In this document: positions 3,953 to 53,056 of the stretch, in pieces
Numbering within the stretch: position 1 is the stretch's first letter
How the letters are laid out: each line of letters starts with the position of its first letter
From: Oscillochloris sp. ZM17-4
Lineage (GTDB): Bacteria > Chloroflexota > Chloroflexia > Chloroflexales > Chloroflexaceae
DNA length: 64,000 bases
Assembly (NCBI RefSeq): GCF_019599295.1
Contig: NZ_JAIEWN010000001.1
Location: forward strand, 291,984-355,983
Reading direction: 5' to 3'
Translations under genes and position numbers: made by a program
Notes under the pieces: generated by a model
The model's input: only the letters and a program-made list of their open reading frames with translations
The model's database searches: none
Told to the model about the DNA's origin: nothing

Positions 3953-4930
3953 GTGGATATAAGCATCTGGGCCTGGGTGGGATTCCACGCAGTCATCTTC
4001 TTCCTGCTCGCCCTAGACCTGGGAGTCTTCCACCGCAGCGCCCACGAGGTGAAGGTTCAGGAGGCAGCGATCTGGACGGTCATCTGGATCTCGCTCTCGC
4101 TGCTCTTCAACCTGGGGCTCTCCTTCTGGCTCGGCCAGGAGGCCGGGCTGAACTTCCTCGCTGGCTACCTGATCGAGTACTCGCTCAGCGTCGATAATAT
4201 CTTCATCTTCGTCCTGCTCTTCTCCTTCTTCCGCGTCCCCGCCGCCTACCAGCACCGCGTGCTCTTCTGGGGCATCCTCGGCGCCCTGATCATGCGCGGC
4301 AGCCTGATCCTGCTCGGCTCCGCCCTGATCGAGCGCTTCGAGTGGATCATCTATATCTTTGGGGCGTTCCTGGTCTTCACCGGCCTACGCATGTTCTTCA
4401 GCGGCGACGATGAGGAGGAGGATGTCCACCCCGAGGGCAACGTCCTCGTGCGGGTGGTGCGCCGCTTCCTGCCCGTCACCAAGGAGATGCGCGGGCCGCG
4501 CTTCTTTGTGAAGGAGGACGGGATGCTCATGGCCACACCGCTGCTGATCGTCCTGCTGATCGTCGAGAGCACCGACCTGATCTTCGCCGTCGACTCGATC
4601 CCGGCCATCTTCGGGATCACCCACGACGCCTTCATCGTCTACACCTCGAATATCTGCGCCATCCTCGGGCTGCGCTCGCTCTACTTCCTGCTCGCCGGCG
4701 TGATGGATAAGTTTCACTACCTGAAGACCGGCCTGGCCGTCATCCTGACCTTCGTCGGCATGAAGATGCTCTGGCCCGAGATCACCTACCTCGCCCTCCA
4801 CGAGCGCTACGAGATCCCGAACCTGCTCTCGCTCGGCGTGATCATCGCCACCCTCTCGGTCGCCATCATCGCCTCGCTTATCCGCGCCCGCCGCCTGGAG
4901 GGGCAGCAGCCGGCCGAAGTCGGACAGTAG
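3953..4930 (+). CDS. TerC-family integral membrane protein (Alx-like)
   Basis: Polytopic inner-membrane protein of the TerC/Alx family, whose members are implicated in metal-ion export, tellurium resistance or membrane redox balance. About eight hydrophobic segments are visible, with family-typical acidic patches inside membrane regions (EYSLSVDNIFIFVLLFSFF, and later VESTDLIFAVDSIPAIF). The cytosolic loop is charged (DDEEEDVHPEGN). I chose the GTG at 3953, which follows GGAGG at 3944-3948. The ATG at 3914 would start inside the heptad repeats. Length is 325 residues, normal for the family. The substrate cannot be deduced. It stands alone, between a MITE-like element and a GGGGACA repeat. Confidence 0.92.
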   Translation: MDISIWAWVGFHAVIFFLLALDLGVFHRSAHEVKVQEAAIWTVIWISLSLLFNLGLSFWLGQEAGLNFLAGYLIEYSLSVDNIFIFVLLFSFFRVPAAYQHRVLFWGILGALIMRGSLILLGSALIERFEWIIYIFGAFLVFTGLRMFFSGDDEEEDVHPEGNVLVRVVRRFLPVTKEMRGPRFFVKEDGMLMATPLLIVLLIVESTDLIFAVDSIPAIFGITHDAFIVYTSNICAILGLRSLYFLLAGVMDKFHYLKTGLAVILTFVGMKMLWPEITYLALHERYEIPNLLSLGVIIATLSVAIIASLIRARRLEGQQPAEVGQ

Positions 4931-5060
4931 GGGACAGTAGGGGACAGGGGACAGCGCACAGGGGACAGGCCGGGCGCATCGCGCCTATAGATGTGCGTTT
5001 CCTCTCCCCTGTCCCCTGTCCCCTGTCCCCTGTCCCCTGTCCCCTGTCCCCTGTCCCCTA
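4922..5060. repeat. GGGGACA heptad repeats in inverted arms
   Basis: Several GGGGACA units on the left (4922-4966) face a longer run of TGTCCCC units on the right (5004-5060), with a short spacer between. The structure could form a long G-rich/C-rich hairpin between the TerC gene and the peptidase. The same heptad recurs inside a coding region at 29,110-29,192. Confidence 0.9.
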
Positions 5061-27778: not shown

Positions 27779-30148
27779 ATGGCATACGCCGCCCTGATCG
27801 GCGCCGAGGTGAAGCGCAAAGAAGACCCGCGGCTCATCCGCGGCGCCGGCTCCTATGTCGGCGACCTGAAGCTCCCCGGCATGCTCCACGTGGCCTTGGT
27901 GCGCAGCCCCTACCCCCACGCCCGCGTCGGCGCGATCGACCGCGCCGCCGCCGAGGCCATGCCCGGCGTGGTAGCCGTGATCACCGGCGAGGACCTGCGG
28001 GCCAGCTACGGGCTGCTGCCCAGCGCCAGCTCCGGCGAGGGCGGCGGCGGCGCCGTGCAGACGGCCCGCACCCGCTACCCGCTCTCGGTGGGGGTCGTGC
28101 GCCACGCCGGCGAGGCCGTCGCCGCCGTGGTCGCCGCCAGCATGCCCGAGGCGATCGACGCCGCCGAGGCCGTCCAGGTGGACTGGGAGCCCCTGCCCAG
28201 CGTGGCCGACCCGCGGCGCGCCCTGGAGCCCGACGCCCCGATCCTCTTTGAGGGCATGGCCAATAACATCGACCACTCGCGCAGGCGGGCCAAGGGTGAC
28301 GCCGACGCCGCCTTCGCCGCGGCCCACCGCGTCGTCAGGCAGCGCATGGTTAACCAGCGCCTCTTCGGCATGCCCATGGAGGGCCGGGCCGTGGCCGCCG
28401 CCCCCGACGCCGCCACCGGCGGCTTCACCCTCTGGACGAGCACCCAGACCCCGCACCAGGTGCGCGGTGAGGTCGCCGCCGTCCTGCGCATGCACGAGAG
28501 CCAGGTGCGCGTGATCGCCCCCGACGTGGGCGGCGGCTTCGGCGTGAAGATCGGCGTCTACCCCGAGGAGGCGCTGATCCCGGCCCTGGCCATGCGCCTG
28601 GGCGCGCCGGTGCGCTGGGTCGAGAGCCGCCTGGAGCACGTCTTCGCCACCACCCACGGCCGCGACCAGGTGACGGACATGGAGGCCGCCGTCGAAGCCG
28701 ACGGCACGATCAGCGCCCTGCGCATGCGCGTACTGGCCAACATCGGCGCCTACCCGCTGGCCCCCGGCCTGCCCGACCTGACCACCGCCATGGCCACGGG
28801 CGTCTACAAGATTCCGGTGGTCGACCTTGAGACAACCTGCGTCTACACCAACACCACCCCGGTGGCCGCCTACCGCGGGGCCGGCCGCCCCGAGGCCGCC
28901 TACTATATCGAGCGCATGATCGACCTGGTGGCCGCCGAGCTCGACCTCGACCCGGCCCAGGTGCGCCGCGTCAACTTCGTCCCGCCCGACGCCTTCCCCT
29001 ACAAGACGGCCACCGGCCTGAACTACGACAGCGGAGAGTACGACAAGGCGCTCACCAAGGCCCTGGAGATCTCCGGCTACGCGGGGCTGCGCGCCGAGCA
29101 GGCGGCAAGGAGGGGACAGGGGACAGGGGACAGGGGACAGCCCGAAGGTGCTGGTGCGGATCCTGTTCCCTCTCCCCTGTCCCCTGTCCCCTTGCTCGGC
29201 ATCGGCATCGCTTGCTACGTCGAGATGTGCGGCTTCGGCCCCTACGAGAGCGCCCAGATCAAGGTCGAGCCCAGCGGCAGCGTCACCGTGACCACCGGGA
29301 TCTCGCCGCACGGCCAGGGCACCGGCACCACCTTCGCCCAGATCGTCGCCGACCAGATCGGCGCCGACTTCGAGCGGATCGTCTTCAAGTCCGGCGACAC
29401 GGCCACCACGCCGATGGGCGTGGGCACCATGGGCTCGCGCTCGCTGGCCGTGGGCGGCGGTGCGCTGGCCCGCGCGGCCACCCGCCTGCGCGACAAGCTG
29501 CGCAAGATCGCCGCCTACATGCTTGAGGCCAACGAGGCCGACGTCGAGCTGATCGAGGGCAGCTACCAGGTGCGCGGCGCCCCCGACGCCAGCCTGACCC
29601 TGTCCCAGCTCGCCAAGCGCGCCTACAGCAGCAAGCTGCCCGACGACATCGACAGCGGCCTGGAGGAGACCGACTTCTTCCGCCCGGCCGACCTGATCTA
29701 CCCCTTCGGCGCGCACGTCGCCGTGGTCGAGGTGGAGCCGGACACCGGCGTGGTGCGGGTGCGCAGCTACTTCTCGGTGGACGACTGCGGCCCGCGGATC
29801 AGCCCCATAATCGTGGCCGGGCAGGTCCACGGCGGCCTGGCCCAGGGCATCGCCCAGGCCCTGCTGGAGGAGGTCGTCTACGACGAGAGCGGCCAGCTGA
29901 TCACCGGCTCGCTGATGGACTACGCCCTGCCCAAGGCCAGCTTCTTCCCGGCCTTCACCCTCGACCAGACCGTCACGCCCACCCCGCTCAACCCGCTGGG
30001 GGTCAAGGGCATCGGTGAGGCGGCCACCGTCGGCTCCACGCCGGCGATCGCCAACGCGGTGGTGGACGCCCTGCGCCACGCCGGGGTGCGCCACATCGAC
30101 ATCCCCATGCGCTCGGAGAAGGTCTGGCGGGCGATCAACGCGAAGTAG
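27779..30148 (+). CDS. Molybdenum hydroxylase large subunit (xanthine dehydrogenase/aldehyde oxidase family) with an in-frame repeat insertion
   Basis: Molybdopterin-binding subunit of the XDH/CO-dehydrogenase superfamily. The N-terminal domain has KRKEDPRLIRGAGSYVGD. Cofactor-contact motifs include VIAPDVGGGFGVK (about residues 241-253) and AYRGAGRPEAAYY (about 363-375), and the active-site region near the C-terminus contains GVKGIGEAATVGSTPAI with the conserved Glu. The AYRGAGRPE form, without the AYRCSFR loop, argues against a true CO dehydrogenase. Residues about 443-472 are encoded by a GGGGACA heptad inverted repeat (29,110-29,192) and look like an insertion (GQGTGDRG...SPLSPVP). No medium (FAD) or small (2Fe-2S) subunit gene is in the window. 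The stop TAG lies in a palindrome. Whether the insertion affects function is unknown. Confidence 0.9.
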   Translation: MAYAALIGAEVKRKEDPRLIRGAGSYVGDLKLPGMLHVALVRSPYPHARVGAIDRAAAEAMPGVVAVITGEDLRASYGLLPSASSGEGGGGAVQTARTRYPLSVGVVRHAGEAVAAVVAASMPEAIDAAEAVQVDWEPLPSVADPRRALEPDAPILFEGMANNIDHSRRRAKGDADAAFAAAHRVVRQRMVNQRLFGMPMEGRAVAAAPDAATGGFTLWTSTQTPHQVRGEVAAVLRMHESQVRVIAPDVGGGFGVKIGVYPEEALIPALAMRLGAPVRWVESRLEHVFATTHGRDQVTDMEAAVEADGTISALRMRVLANIGAYPLAPGLPDLTTAMATGVYKIPVVDLETTCVYTNTTPVAAYRGAGRPEAAYYIERMIDLVAAELDLDPAQVRRVNFVPPDAFPYKTATGLNYDSGEYDKALTKALEISGYAGLRAEQAARRGQGTGDRGQPEGAGADPVPSPLSPVPLLGIGIACYVEMCGFGPYESAQIKVEPSGSVTVTTGISPHGQGTGTTFAQIVADQIGADFERIVFKSGDTATTPMGVGTMGSRSLAVGGGALARAATRLRDKLRKIAAYMLEANEADVELIEGSYQVRGAPDASLTLSQLAKRAYSSKLPDDIDSGLEETDFFRPADLIYPFGAHVAVVEVEPDTGVVRVRSYFSVDDCGPRISPIIVAGQVHGGLAQGIAQALLEEVVYDESGQLITGSLMDYALPKASFFPAFTLDQTVTPTPLNPLGVKGIGEAATVGSTPAIANAVVDALRHAGVRHIDIPMRSEKVWRAINAK
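29110..29192. repeat. GGGGACA heptad inverted repeat inside a coding region
   Basis: Four GGGGACA-type units face complementary TGTCCCC units, all in frame within the molybdenum hydroxylase gene. Three heptads equal seven codons, so the array can be read through. Confidence 0.92.
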
Positions 30149-30203
30149 GGACGAAGCATTCCGTTCTGGCGCTACGCGCCAGAACGGAATGCTTCGTCCC
30201 TAC
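30145..30203. terminator. 28-bp palindrome providing stop codons for both convergent genes
   Basis: Arms 30,145-30,172 and 30,176-30,203 are perfect complements around TAC. Each outer end reads GTAGGG outward, supplying the TAG of the rightward hydroxylase gene (30,146-30,148) and of the leftward kinase gene (30,200-30,202). The location is ideal for a bidirectional terminator. Confidence 0.88.
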
Positions 30204-33466: not shown

Positions 33467-34387
33467 ATGACAGCATCTCAGACACACACATCCCTCACTC
33501 GCTTCGCATGGCTCTCGATCGCCGCGGCGGTCGTCACGATCGGCCTGAAGGCCGGGGCCTACCTGATCACCGGCTCGGTCGGCCTGCTCTCCGACGCCCT
33601 GGAGTCGGTCGTCAACCTGGTGGCGGCGATCGTCGCCCTGGTGGTGCTCACCGTGGCCGCCCGCCCGCCCGACGAGGATCACGCCTACGGCCACGGCAAG
33701 GCCGAGTACTTCTCCAGTGGTGTCGAGGGCTCCCTGATCCTGGTGGCGGCCGCCAGCATCGCCTACGCCGCCGTCGGCCGCCTGCTCAACCCGCAGCCGA
33801 TCGAGGGGGTCGGGCTAGGCCTGGCGATCTCGGTGAGCGCCTCGGCGATCAACTTCGCCGTGGCCCGCGTGCTCATGCGGGCCGGCCGCCACTACCACTC
33901 GATCACCCTGGAGGCCGACTCGCACCACCTGATGACCGATGTCTGGACATCGGCGGGCGTGATCGTCGGCGTGGCCCTGGTGGCGCTCACCGGCTGGGAG
34001 CTGCTCGACCCGGTCATCGCCCTGATCGTGGCCGCCAACATTGTCTGGACGGGCGCGCGCATCCTCCAGCGCTCGGCCCTCGGCCTGCTCGACACCGCCC
34101 TGCCCGCCGCAGAGCGCCAGCATGTGCTCGCCATCCTCAACCGCTACGCCGAGGCCGAGGGCATCCAGTACCACGCCCTGCGCACCCGCGAGGCCGCATC
34201 CCGCCGCTTCGTCTCCGTCCACATCCTCGTGCCCGGCTCCTGGAGCGTGCTGCGCGGCCACCACCTGCTCGAGCAGATCGAGCAGGAGGTGCGCGCCGCC
34301 CTGCCCAACACCACGATCTTCACCCACCTGGAGCCGATCGAGGACCCGGCATCCTTCGACGACCAGACCCTCGACCGGGTGCGGTGA
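33467..34387 (+). CDS. Cation diffusion facilitator (CDF) family metal transporter
   Basis: Six-helix divalent-cation/proton antiporter. Residues 1-200 hold the membrane domain with metal-site motifs [12 protein letters not shown] (helix II), [11 protein letters not shown] and [14 protein letters not shown] (helix V, HxxxD). The cytoplasmic C-terminal domain (about 205-295) contains the regulatory ferredoxin-like fold with [20 protein letters not shown]. The HxxxD pair suggests Zn, Cd or Co rather than Mn. Start is the ATG at 33,467 with a weak ribosome-binding site. The gene is followed by GATTGCA heptad repeats and a convergent kinase. Confidence 0.93.
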
Positions 34388-34472
34388 TGATTGCAGATTG
34401 TAGATTGCTGATTGCAGATTGCGCTCCGGACATCCCGACAATCTGCAATCTGCAATCTGCAATCTACAATCC
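34387..34472. repeat. GATTGCA heptad repeats in inverted arms (intergenic)
   Basis: About four GATTGCA/GATTGTA units on the left face complementary TGCAATC units on the right. They fill the whole gap between the convergent CDF and Amt-kinase genes. The array may serve as a bidirectional terminator. Confidence 0.9.
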
Positions 34473-37400
34473 CTACCCCTCGCCCCGGGCGATGTACGAG
34501 AGCACCAGGCTCCGCACGTCGCCGAGCAGATCCTCGTGGCTGTACGAGCCCTTCTGGAGCACCTTCTCCACATAGCCGTTCAGGCGCATCCGGTCGGTCG
34601 CGCTCAGATCCATCGCTGTCAGGACAACGATCGGGATGCTGCGCCAGAGGGCCGTCGAGCGCAGGGCGCTGATCACCTCGAAGCCGTCCATCTTCGGCAT
34701 CATCAGGTCGAGCAGGATCAGGTCGGGCCGGCGCTCGGCCACCCGGCCCAGGGCCACCTCGCCGTTGTCGGCCTCGGCCACCTGCCAGCCCTCGCGCTCC
34801 AGCATGCGCCGCAGCATCTCGCGGGTGCCCGGGTCGTCCTCCACCACCAGGATGTTCGAGGCGGCCGCGACGGACGGCCGGTGCGACTCCACCACGCGCA
34901 GCAGGCGCTCGCGGTCCACCGGCTTCATGAGGTAGTCGTCCGCGCCCAGGGCGAAGCCGCGCTGCCGGTCGTCCACCATCGTCATCATGATCACCGGCAC
35001 GTCGTGCAGATCGGGGTCGGCCTTGATCTTGGCCAGGACAGCCCAGCCGTCCAGCTCCGGCATCATCACGTCCAGCGTGATCACCGCCGGCCGGGCCGCG
35101 CGGGCCATGGCCAGCCCCTCTGCGCCGCCGCTCGCCAGCATCACCTGGATGCCCTCGCGCGCCAGAGTGCGCCGGATCAGCTCGCGGGCCTCGGGGTCGT
35201 CGTCGATCACCAGCACCGCCGCCTGCGTCAGCGCCGCCGGCCCGACGCCGCCCGCATCGACGCCGGCATCGTGCGCCGGCACGATCGGCAGCCCCAGCGG
35301 CAGCGTCACCCGGAAGGTGGAGCCCTCGCCGGGCACGCTCGTCACCGCGATGTCGCCGCCCATCATCTGGCAGAAGCGCCGGCTGATCGCCAGGCCCAGC
35401 CCGGTGCCGCCGTACCTGCGCGTCGTGCTCGCGTCGGCCTGGCTGAACTCCCTGAACAGCCCGTCCATCTGATCCGCGCTCATGCCGATGCCGGTGTCGA
35501 TCACCTCGAACACAATTGCAGATTGCAGATTGTAGATTGCAGATTGCGCCGCGCTCAAGCCCGATTCTGCAATCTGCAATCTGCAATCTGCAATCAAACT
35601 GACGCGCAGCGTCACCGTGCCGCCCTCGGTGAACTTGCTGGCGTTCGAGAGCAGGTTCAGCAGCACCTGGCGCACCTTGGTCACATCGGCGTTGAGGATA
35701 TCGACCGCCGGGTCCTGCGCGATCACCAGGAGGTTGTGGTTGCGCTCCACCATGGGCGCGATCGTGGCCGCCACCTCATCGACCAGGCTGCGCACCGTGA
35801 ATCGCTCGTAGTAGAGGTCCATGCGCCCGGCCTCGATCTTCGAGAGGTCGAGGATGTTGTTGATCAGCTCCAGCAGGTGCTTGCCGGCGGTGCGGATCTT
35901 CTCCAGGTCGGGCACCAGATCCTCGCTGCCGGTCTCCTCGGCCTCCTCGCGCAGCATCTCGCTGTAGCCGATGATCGCGTTGAGCGGGGTGCGCAGCTCG
36001 TGGCTCATGTTGGCCAGGAAGGTGCTCTTGGCCCGGTTGGCCGCCTCGGCGGCCTCCTTGGCCTGGATCAGCTCGGCCTCGGCCCGCTTGCGCTCGGTGA
36101 TGTCGCGGAAGGTGCCAGTGAAGAAGGGCTCCTTGCCCAGCCGGGCCTCGGTGAACTGGGCCTCGACCGGGAAGGTGCTGCCGTCAGCCCGCCGCCCGGT
36201 GATCTCGCGCCGCGCCGCGGTGGCCGCCGTCTCGCCGATCAGCGCCGTCGCCGCCAGGGCCGAGATCGCCCCGCCCGCGATGTCGCCGAGCAGCACCGGC
36301 GCCGGCTGGCCCGCCAGCTGCGCCTCGCGGTAGCCGAAGATCGCCTCGGCCGCCGGGTTCACCGTGCTGATCTGCAGCCCCTGCCGGCTAAAGGTCACGA
36401 TGCCGTCCATCGCCGTCTGCACGATCGTCTCGGTGCGCGCCACCGCCCGCTCCAGGGTCTCCATCACGCTGTTGTAGCGCGTCGCGATCTGGCCGACCTC
36501 GGTGAAGGGGTCCGCCGGCACGCGCAGGCTCAGGTCGCCCGTGCGCGACTGGCGGTCCATCACCATAAACAGATCGAGCATGTCGGTCGTGGCGCCGTGC
36601 TCCGACACATTCAGCCCGATCTCCTCGTCCTCGGGGCTGGCCCGCAGCGGGAAGACCCGGTCGATCAGGCGCAGGGCCAGGTAGGTGATGCCGAAAGTCC
36701 ACACGCCGCAGACCAGGATGCCGAGCAGCTGCACGCCGACCTGCGAGAGGAACGAGAGCCCGGTGTTCAGCCGGCCCGGCTCGCCGAAGAGGCCGACCGC
36801 CAGGGTGCCCCAGATCCCGGCCGCCAGGTGGACCGGGATGGCGCCCACGGCGTCGTCGATCCGCCAGCGGATGAGCAGATAGTCGCAGGCCAGCATGAGC
36901 AGGCCGCCGATGCCGCCGATGATCACCGCGCTGAGCGAGGAGACGACGTGGGCGTTGGCGGTGACGGCGACCAGCCCGGCCAGGGCGCCGTTGAGCGCCA
37001 GGTCGACCTCGGCCCGGCCGCGCACGCGCCAGCCGGCCACCAGGGTGAAGATCAGCCCGGCCGACCCGCCCAGGACGGTGTTGATCAGCACGCCCGGCAC
37101 GCGGCCGTCCATGCCCAGGGTGCTGCCGCCGTTAAATCCGAACCAGCCGAACCAGAGCAGGAGCGTGCCGAGGGTGGCCAGGGGGATGTCGGCGCCCTGC
37201 ATGCGCTGGGGCGGCCCGCCCTTGGGGAAGCGGCCGATGCGCGGGCCGATCACCAGCAGCGCCGCCAGCGAGGTCCACCCGCCGAAGCTATGCACCACCG
37301 ACGAGCCGGCGAAGTCCACGAAGCCCATGCTGTTCAGCCAGCCGGCCGGCCGCCCGTCGACGCCCAGGTTCCAGACCCAGTGGCCGAAGATCGGGTAGGT

Positions 37401-37790
37401 GAAGCCGGCGATCAGCACCATGATGATCAGGTAGGAGGCGAAGCGCATGCGCTCGGCCACCGCGCCGGCCAGGATGGTCGCCGCCGTGCCGCAGAACATC
37501 ACCTGGAAGAAGAAGTAGGCGGCGGCCCAGGGCTGCTGCCGGCCGAGGTCGAGGGCCATCCCGCTCGACCCGAAGAGGCCGCCCCGGCTCAGGCCGAACA
37601 TCAGCCCGTAGCCGATCAGCCAGTAGACCAGCGTCGAGACCCCGAAGTCCGAGAGGTTCTTCATCGCGACGTTGATGTTGTTCTTGCGCCGCGTGACCCC
37701 CGCCTCCAGGCACATAAAGCCGGCCTGCATCATAAAGACGAGCCCGGCACAGATGACCAGCCACATGATGTCCGTCGCCGACTTCGTCAC
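34473..37790 (-). CDS. Ammonium transporter fused to hybrid histidine kinase (Amt-PAS-HisKA-HATPase-REC-REC)
   Basis: Predicted ammonium sensor kinase. Residues 1-380 form a complete Amt/Rh-type channel with 11 helices and both pore histidines (H167 in [10 protein letters not shown] and H321 in AIPVHLAAG), plus the [10 protein letters not shown] segment. A HAMP-like linker (about 405-450), PAS (about 455-570), HisKA ([11 protein letters not shown], His near 595), HATPase_c (about 690-830) and two receivers follow ([11 protein letters not shown] near 905-915; [11 protein letters not shown] near 1025-1035). Residues about 731-758 derive from a GATTGCA heptad repeat inserted in frame before the D-box (DTGIGM). 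Amt-kinase fusions are known, for example Ks-Amt5 of Kuenenia. Tandem receivers make this a longer version. No amtB-glnK pair is adjacent. Probably monocistronic. Confidence 0.95.
35515..35596. repeat. GATTGCA heptad inverted repeat inside the Amt-kinase gene
   Basis: Four GATTGCA-type units and four complementary units lie in frame within the HATPase_c region, translating as IADCRLQ and NLQSAI-type peptides. They are near-identical to the intergenic array at 34,387-34,472, about 1 kb away. Confidence 0.92.
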
Positions 37791-37848
37791 AGCCAGACCC
37801 TCCGCGCGCTCAGCGTCAACCCATCAGCTTTAGGCATAAGCATAACAC

Positions 37849-42774: not shown

Positions 42775-42841
42775 GGCAGAGCGCAGAGCGTAGAGCGCAG
42801 AGCGCAGAGCGTAGGGCGCAGAGCGTAGGGCGTAGAGCGTC
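42775..42841 (+). repeat. GCGCAGA/GCGTAGA heptad array, one-armed
   Basis: About nine tandem 7-bp units (GCGCAGA, GCGTAGA, GCGTAGG) lie in the divergent space between the nucleoside hydrolase and exonuclease genes. No complementary arm follows. Confidence 0.9.
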
Positions 42842-51367: not shown

Positions 51368-51390
51368 GCATCACTCCTTAGTATAGACAA

Positions 51391-51424
51391 GATTGCAGAT
51401 TGTAGATTGCAGATTGCAGATTTG
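51391..51424 (+). repeat. GATTGCA heptad array, one-armed
   Basis: Four tandem GATTGCA/GATTGTA units lie just upstream of the histidine phosphatase gene. No facing arm is present. Confidence 0.8.
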
Positions 51425-52852: not shown

Positions 52853-53056
52853 GTGTAGGGCCGAAGCAGTCGCCTGGGATGCCTACGGTTATAGGATGAT
52901 CCATCCGGGGCGGCATGTGTAGGGCCGAAGCAGTCGCCTGGGATGCCTACGGTTATAGGATGATCCATCCGGGGCGACATGTGTAGGGCCGAAGCAGTCG
53001 CCTGGGATGCCTACGGTTATAGGATGATCCATCCGGGGCGACTGCTTCGGCCCTAC
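52853..53056. repeat. Three direct 64-bp repeats closed by an inverted arm
   Basis: Units begin at 52,853, 52,917 and 52,981, each starting GTGTAGGGCCGAAGCAGTCG and differing at one base (GGCAT or GACAT). After the third, the sequence continues GCGACTGCTTCGGCCCTAC (53,038-53,056), which is the inverse of the unit start. There are no variable spacers, so this is not a CRISPR. The array abuts the chimeric pseudogene. Confidence 0.92.

Follow-up and report, generated by a model that had tools for sequence, protein, structure and literature searches.

The heptad inverted repeat inside a molybdenum hydroxylase gene of Oscillochloris sp. ZM17-4 is one copy of a class of heptad elements that is spread over the whole genome. 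The gene lies in a window of 64,000 nt (the whole stretch of DNA that was analysed), and the features of this window are collected in Table 1. An inverted repeat had been predicted at 29110-29192 from the letters alone; it is present, at 29111-29192, and lies far above chance both in shuffles and in folding. Its arms are 30 nt each, complementary at 28 of 30 positions and 22 nt apart. AGGGGAC units start at 29111, 29118, 29125 and 29132, and exact GTCCCCT units stand at 29179 and 29186, preceded by degenerate ones. With at most one mismatch allowed, the window has 13 matches to GGGGACAGGGGACA, where shuffles average 0.04, and DNA folding of the stretch gave z = -6.9, an equally good fold being found in 0 of 200 shuffles. 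In the reading that we prefer, with a probability of roughly 0.55, heptad arrays would arise by slippage, fold-back and ectopic copying under selection for frame or stop codon, and the protein would tolerate the insert.

Table 1. Coordinates of the host gene, its hairpin and the other heptad elements of the window
Feature	Position	Strand	Basis
Molybdenum hydroxylase large subunit, xanthine-oxidase/CODH-large family, 789 aa, intact	27779-30148	+	
AGGGGAC heptad hairpin within the molybdenum hydroxylase gene	29111-29192	+	arms, fold, counts
Left purine-rich arm, 4 AGGGGAC units, read as GQGTGDRG-type residues	29111-29140	+	
Spacer, core TGCTGGTGC common to the ZM16-3 orthologue	29141-29162	+	
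Right pyrimidine-rich arm, inverted heptads, read as PSPLSPVP-type residues	29163-29192	+	
Second GGGGACA heptad hairpin of the window	4922-5059		
GATTGCA heptad hairpin, one base after the stop of the cation-efflux gene 33467-34387	34389-34471		
GATTGCA heptad hairpin, in frame in the HATPase domain of a histidine kinase	35515-35595	-	
GCAGAGC-type heptad array, unpaired	42776-42839		
GATTGCA heptad array, unpaired	51390-51422		

Heptad arrays across the genome

Arrays were defined by at least 14 matches at a given lag, and lags 2 to 30 were compared in 1.236 Mb of G000 (this genome, 6.69 Mb) and in 354 kb of G005, which we take to be ZM16-3, of the same genus. Period-7 primitive arrays numbered 169 in the G000 sample, the second commonest lag (21) giving 22 and all other lags 22 or fewer; in the G005 sample there were 33, with 15 at lag 21 and at most 15 at any other lag. 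The G000 sample holds 29 heptad types, the commonest being GATTGCA, GGGGACA and GAATGTT. Among 61 genomes of Chloroflexales, three tandem units of GATTGCA occur in 13, with 522 overlapping matches in G000. Three units of GGGGACA occur in 7 of the 61 (209 overlapping matches in G000, 63 in G005 and 1 to 3 in each of the other five), a count for which the reversed sequence is no control because this tandem reads alike backwards. Three units are more frequent than four in GATTGCA (37 against 22), GAATGTT (23 against 15) and GGGGACA (17 against 12), and are commonest in most families of at least three units; the left arm at the molybdenum hydroxylase locus has four. By eye, the spacers of the hairpins look unrelated among copies and only the heptads are shared. 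No inverted partner was found by the detector for 110 of 175 elements. Elsewhere in the window, a 64-nt unit occurs three times in tandem (52853-53042). It contains GTAGGGCCGAAGCA, which is similar to the first bases of a non-heptad hairpin family (GTAGGG...) that is frequent in the genome.

The elements have a marked polarity. When both samples were pooled, neighbouring arrays at most 100 nt apart formed 51 inverted and 3 direct pairs of the same family, as well as 29 pairs of different heptads, and the left arm was purine-rich in all 51 inverted pairs. With a separate detector, the same was true of 93 of 94 heptad hairpins, compared with 219 of 303 other hairpins. Placement was examined at flanks that represent gene 3' ends. 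A stop codon stood within 12 nt of the edge at 63 of 71 such flanks of heptad hairpins and at 82 of 109 for all heptad elements. Other hairpins had a stop that close at 122 of 260 flanks, and random segments at 104 of 719. The 82 near-stop flanks were purine-rich in the sense strand in 79 cases and pyrimidine-rich in 3, and in many of them the stop codon is completed by the first purines of the element. Unpaired arrays are purine-rich in sense in 33 of 36 cases near a stop and in 8 of 20 further away. At the end of the molybdenum hydroxylase gene itself, a non-heptad hairpin (30146-30202) begins, by eye, exactly at the TAG stop.

One possibility is that the arrays act primarily at the RNA level at gene 3' ends, as a terminator, a stabiliser of the mRNA end or a G-quadruplex switch, and that a purine-to-pyrimidine hairpin of any sequence has been selected for this, with the in-gene copies as by-products. 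Both the polarity and the stop-codon placement speak for it, as do some orthologous sites at which the hairpin is kept and its sequence changed, and the stop-codon bias of Xanthomonas heptads described in the accessible part of PMC4692102. However, neither the 7-nt period nor the in-gene copies are explained in this way: heptad hairpins have in-gene flanks in 22 of 93 cases, against 8 of 268 for other hairpins. The predominance of three units, not four, in most families argues against it as well, and since G-tracts are absent from GATTGCA and GAATGTT, quadruplexes cannot be general. As the origin of the class, an RNA element thus described seems to us improbable. A role in RNA at the ends of genes could well have come on top of copying, and this would explain polarity and stop-codon placement.

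In-frame copies and turnover at shared sites

To judge from their flanks, a reading frame runs uninterrupted from one side to the other through 20 of the 175 elements, 6 share a frame with a stop, 8 lie between different frames of the same strand, 4 between opposite strands, 69 have one coding flank and 68 have none; the classifier misses genes with a weak codon signal. An earlier classifier with other thresholds kept 116 elements, with some in-frame cases beyond these 20; on 132 long ORFs, some of which may be spurious, it assigned the strand correctly in 90 cases for one half and in 95 for the other, and gave both halves the same frame in 123. Ten of the 20 open cases are backed by a family model or an orthologue alignment, and the other ten by codon statistics, two of them by a DNA alignment too. 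The other 14 same-strand cases are not open; by eye, their upstream frame stops at the element, a few codons from it or inside it, and therefore none of them is a clear frameshift within a gene.

The genes that bear inserts include those for PEP carboxylase, MnmG and MutS in both genomes, and those for MetH and RecN in G005. Among the copies scanned, NCBIfam cut-offs were passed by PEP carboxylase of G000 and by MnmG, MutS, MetH and RecN of G005. A member of the isocitrate/isopropylmalate dehydrogenase family and an agmatine deiminase-like gene, also with inserts, have strong Pfam matches and fall below the NCBIfam cut-offs. In an ABC transporter the insert stands between the two domains, and in the window's histidine kinase, which also has an ammonium-transporter domain (open frame 34476-37823, minus strand), it lies inside HATPase_c. 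In MnmG, by our own reading, the heptad arm that would create TGA is interrupted, and the opposite arm is a clean run. Three observations on individual genes may be added. One or two stop codons were flagged in the housekeeping matches L204 (MutS of G000), L175 and L176 (MnmG of G001 and G004); these may be genuine, or may stem from assembly errors or start-site effects. The MnmG of G001 (L175) carries a non-heptad palindromic insert, GAGACGCCCC...GGGGCGTCTC, at the position in the protein where G000 and G005 have their heptad loop. A single long frame at G000:C95:99315-102275, valyl-tRNA-synthetase-like by eye, has two heptad inserts, GGGGACA and GATTGCA, and ZM16-3 has a non-heptad inverted repeat in place of the second.

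The fate of shared sites was followed by comparing 318 hairpins of G000, heptad and other, with the G005 sample. At the 35 sites that could be aligned, G005 has a similar hairpin in 7 cases, a different one in 11 and none by the detector in 17. By our own reading, the 11 different sites have heptad hairpins in both genomes in 2 cases, in one genome in 6 and in neither in 3. Some of the 17 sites visibly hold other heptad arrays, and the host-gene hairpin was counted here because its short ZM16-3 form falls below the threshold of the detector. In the reverse comparison, 20 of 79 G005 sites were alignable, and the G000 hairpin was similar at 7, different at 10 and missing at 3. Random places had any hairpin in 3 of 306 cases, and in 2 of 285 in the reverse direction, a contrast that is overstated for intergenic slots because the random control is mostly coding DNA. 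A single shuffled Markov sequence, sized as the stretch from contig C95, gave 0 hairpins. Synteny between C1 of G000 and C40 of G005 comprised only 17 blocks longer than 500 nt, and was better between C95 and C40.

At C95 240391 of G000 there is a GATTGCA hairpin; between the corresponding flanks of G005, both arms consist of GATTTTT. The G000 element keeps ATTTTTG at its edge, a remnant which suggests that GATTGCA came later there, and on this one well-resolved site an apparent in-place replacement of one heptad by another is based. The heptads of one MutS loop are GGGAGTC in G005 and GGGGACA in G000, and further genomes have others there; they flank a conserved segment that is native to the protein.

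Dispersed copies might also be produced by mobile palindromes of the MITE or RPE type, moved in trans by a transposase for which the heptads would be repeated binding sites. The many dispersed copies and the patchy occurrence of the two tested heptads among related genomes are consistent with this, and the in-frame coding palindromes of Rickettsia, as covered in the part of the review at hand (PMC2229807), provide a precedent. Several results point the other way. Only the heptads, and by eye not the spacers, are common to the copies; the 29 types found in the G000 sample do not suit a mobile family; and the arms in MutS flank a native segment and so do not form one cassette. At four apparently empty sites, just one of which concerned a heptad hairpin, no target-site duplication was seen by eye. 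The Y1 transposase (PF01797), the sole transposase family searched, had 0 matches in G000 (98.6% complete), while it is present in 41 of 61 genomes, G005 included; mobilisation of the RAYT/REPIN kind is thus not supported for G000. We consider it unlikely that the class spread as mobile palindromes.

In the preferred reading, the arrays would be generated by copying within and between hairpins. Arms would grow and shrink in 7-nt steps by slippage, their complementarity would be maintained by fold-back template switching inside the hairpin, and ectopic copying between hairpins would spread heptads and let one replace another, while selection would retain those copies that are in frame or behind a stop codon. 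Slippage, fold-back and ectopic copying together fit the 7-nt unit, the unshared spacers and the apparent replacement in place. Polarity is left unexplained by this mechanism. Over the 51 pairs, the lengths of the two arms show no positive correlation (r = -0.36), and this counts against strictly concerted growth. The 110 elements with no inverted partner by the detector and the 29 neighbouring pairs of different heptads also speak against the mechanism. In addition, the turnover at stop-flush sites, compared between the same-genus pair G000 and G005, could reflect independent insertion and loss at a favoured slot. Loss of the SbcD nuclease is not supported as a cause of the abundance, as an SbcD match is present in G000 and in 58 of 61 genomes.

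A bolder alternative, which we hold to be doubtful, is a dedicated 7-base engine, an enzyme that slips, templates or reverse-transcribes in 7-nt steps, folds back, and so writes and rewrites convergent purine-to-pyrimidine hairpins at fixed slots; the heptad would be swapped and the slot, whether flush with a stop codon or in a protein loop, would be kept. If this were true, core enzymes would go on receiving new loop sequences from it, and the mismatch-repair and recombination genes of the cell itself would be among those affected.

The host gene and its loop

The protein encoded at the locus matches PF01315, PF02738 and PF20256, and the best structural match of its predicted model is CODH (1n60; Z 43.1, rmsd 2.5, 747 residues aligned). 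Against TIGR02416, the curated equivalog for the large subunit of aerobic CODH, it reached 689 bits, below the cut-off of 991. Its active-site loop reads AYRGAGR, which we take to be of the form II type, in place of AYxCSFR, presumably the copper-site loop motif of form I CODH, which is absent from the protein. We call the product a form II-like molybdenum hydroxylase.

Alignment with orthologues upheld the insertion and reduced its size. The aligned segment has 76 residues in the window protein, 62 in ZM16-3, 54-60 in most orthologues and 66 in L128, whereas the distant paralogues have 67-70 with a separate insertion further on. The net gain is thus about 20 residues relative to most orthologues and 14 relative to ZM16-3, and not the 30 or so given by the original prediction. 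The ZM16-3 orthologue carries a shorter form of the hairpin with the same spacer core and 21 nt less per arm. It had also been proposed that frame is preserved because three heptads make 21 nt; this holds for the difference from ZM16-3 but not for the whole insert. The insert is situated in a loop that joins helix 434-446 to strand 472-479, a site whose length varies among orthologues. In the model, built on an alignment of 30 sequences (pTM 0.83), residues 450-466 form a low-confidence loop with pLDDT below 50. Between the window gene and ZM16-3, its closest orthologue, dN/dS is 0.246 over 775 codons, which indicates that the gene is not decaying and is under purifying selection. The view of the insert as a flexible loop that the protein tolerates is supported by the variable site, by the model and by this ratio; we claim no function for the loop.

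Two further readings can be set aside. That the gene has been inactivated, one of the two options first put forward, and that the repeat is debris is very unlikely. A strong hairpin does lie within the message (-68 kcal/mol for 96 nt), and FAD and iron-sulfur subunits are missing from the five neighbours scanned (UDP-glucose dehydrogenase, Gfo/Idh oxidoreductase, histidine kinase, thiolase and cation efflux), as had been remarked. Against debris stand the full open frame, the low dN/dS and the closeness of the model to CODH. The missing subunits do not serve as a sign of decay either: none was seen within 3 kb of the Chloroflexus islandicus orthologue (L032), where the ORFs include moeA and, by eye, transporter genes. 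Weakest of all, a native loop that merely looks repetitive would agree with the variable length among orthologues, but it is hardly tenable when three tandem units of GGGGACA are frequent only in G000 and G005 among the 61 genomes, when the loop is shorter in the other aligned orthologues and when the five compared at the DNA level show no heptads there.

Two FAD-subunit genes are found elsewhere in this genome, one of them about 55 kb away on the same contig. At G000:C1:377502-378093, a GAATGTT heptad hairpin is flush with a stop codon and directly precedes a gene for an FAD-binding subunit (PF00941). The orphan large subunit may have a distant partner in the product of this gene.

Relation to known repeats

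The closest known elements are the G-rich heptamers of Rehm et al. 2015 (PMC4692102), GGGAATC in Xanthomonas and GGGGA(C/T)T in Nostoc. The portion of that paper available to us reports convergent inverted pairs (70 and 75 cases in two Xanthomonas), a bias towards stop codons on the sense strand with some repeats overlapping the stop, and a minority inside genes. Tandem 7-nt units, convergent pairs and stop placement with a purine-rich sense strand are all shared with the elements described here. The unit GGGNATC is not, the locus having GGGGACA, nor is the preference for four units, which three outnumber here. Moreover, the present class comprises 29 heptads in one sampled genome, non-G-rich ones included, and stands in frame in core genes. 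TAACTGA heptamer repeats, some of which overlap stop codons, are recorded for Beggiatoaceae in the excerpt available of PMC4679880.

Palindromic elements in Rickettsia lie in frame within conserved protein genes and are tolerated; they measure 105-146 bp and have terminal inverted repeats, according to the available part of the review (PMC2229807). An in-frame palindrome in conserved genes is common to both systems, but by eye a common sequence beyond the arms was not found here. A further comparison is the heptanucleotide hairpin of the Nostoc tRNA-Leu intron, reportedly treated by Vioque (1997). As in the present case, paired heptanucleotide repeats stand there inside a functional gene; because those repeats lie in an intron or an RNA gene, frame is irrelevant, whereas here the repeats lie within reading frames. 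The accessible text of PMC3488679 treats the STRR heptads of cyanobacteria and this hairpin with its varying copy number. In a phototroph related to ours, Chloroflexus aurantiacus, (GATAGRA)n heptamer satellites form scattered arrays, similar to those seen here (PMC6749651); they are of one heptad, and the part of the paper at our disposal describes no in-frame hairpins.

No account of in-frame heptad hairpins in Chloroflexales was found in our searches of the open-licence literature. It is the combination that we have not found described: many heptads, in frame in core genes, with one and the same slot holding different sequences. The frequent 7-base units of bacterial tandem repeats, and their pairing as convergent hairpins at stop codons, call for an explanation. 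The present genomes offer many heptad families at orthologous slots, and their reading frames provide an internal record of selection. They belong to another lineage, unrelated to Rickettsia, whose conserved proteins likewise seem to tolerate inserts of palindromic DNA.
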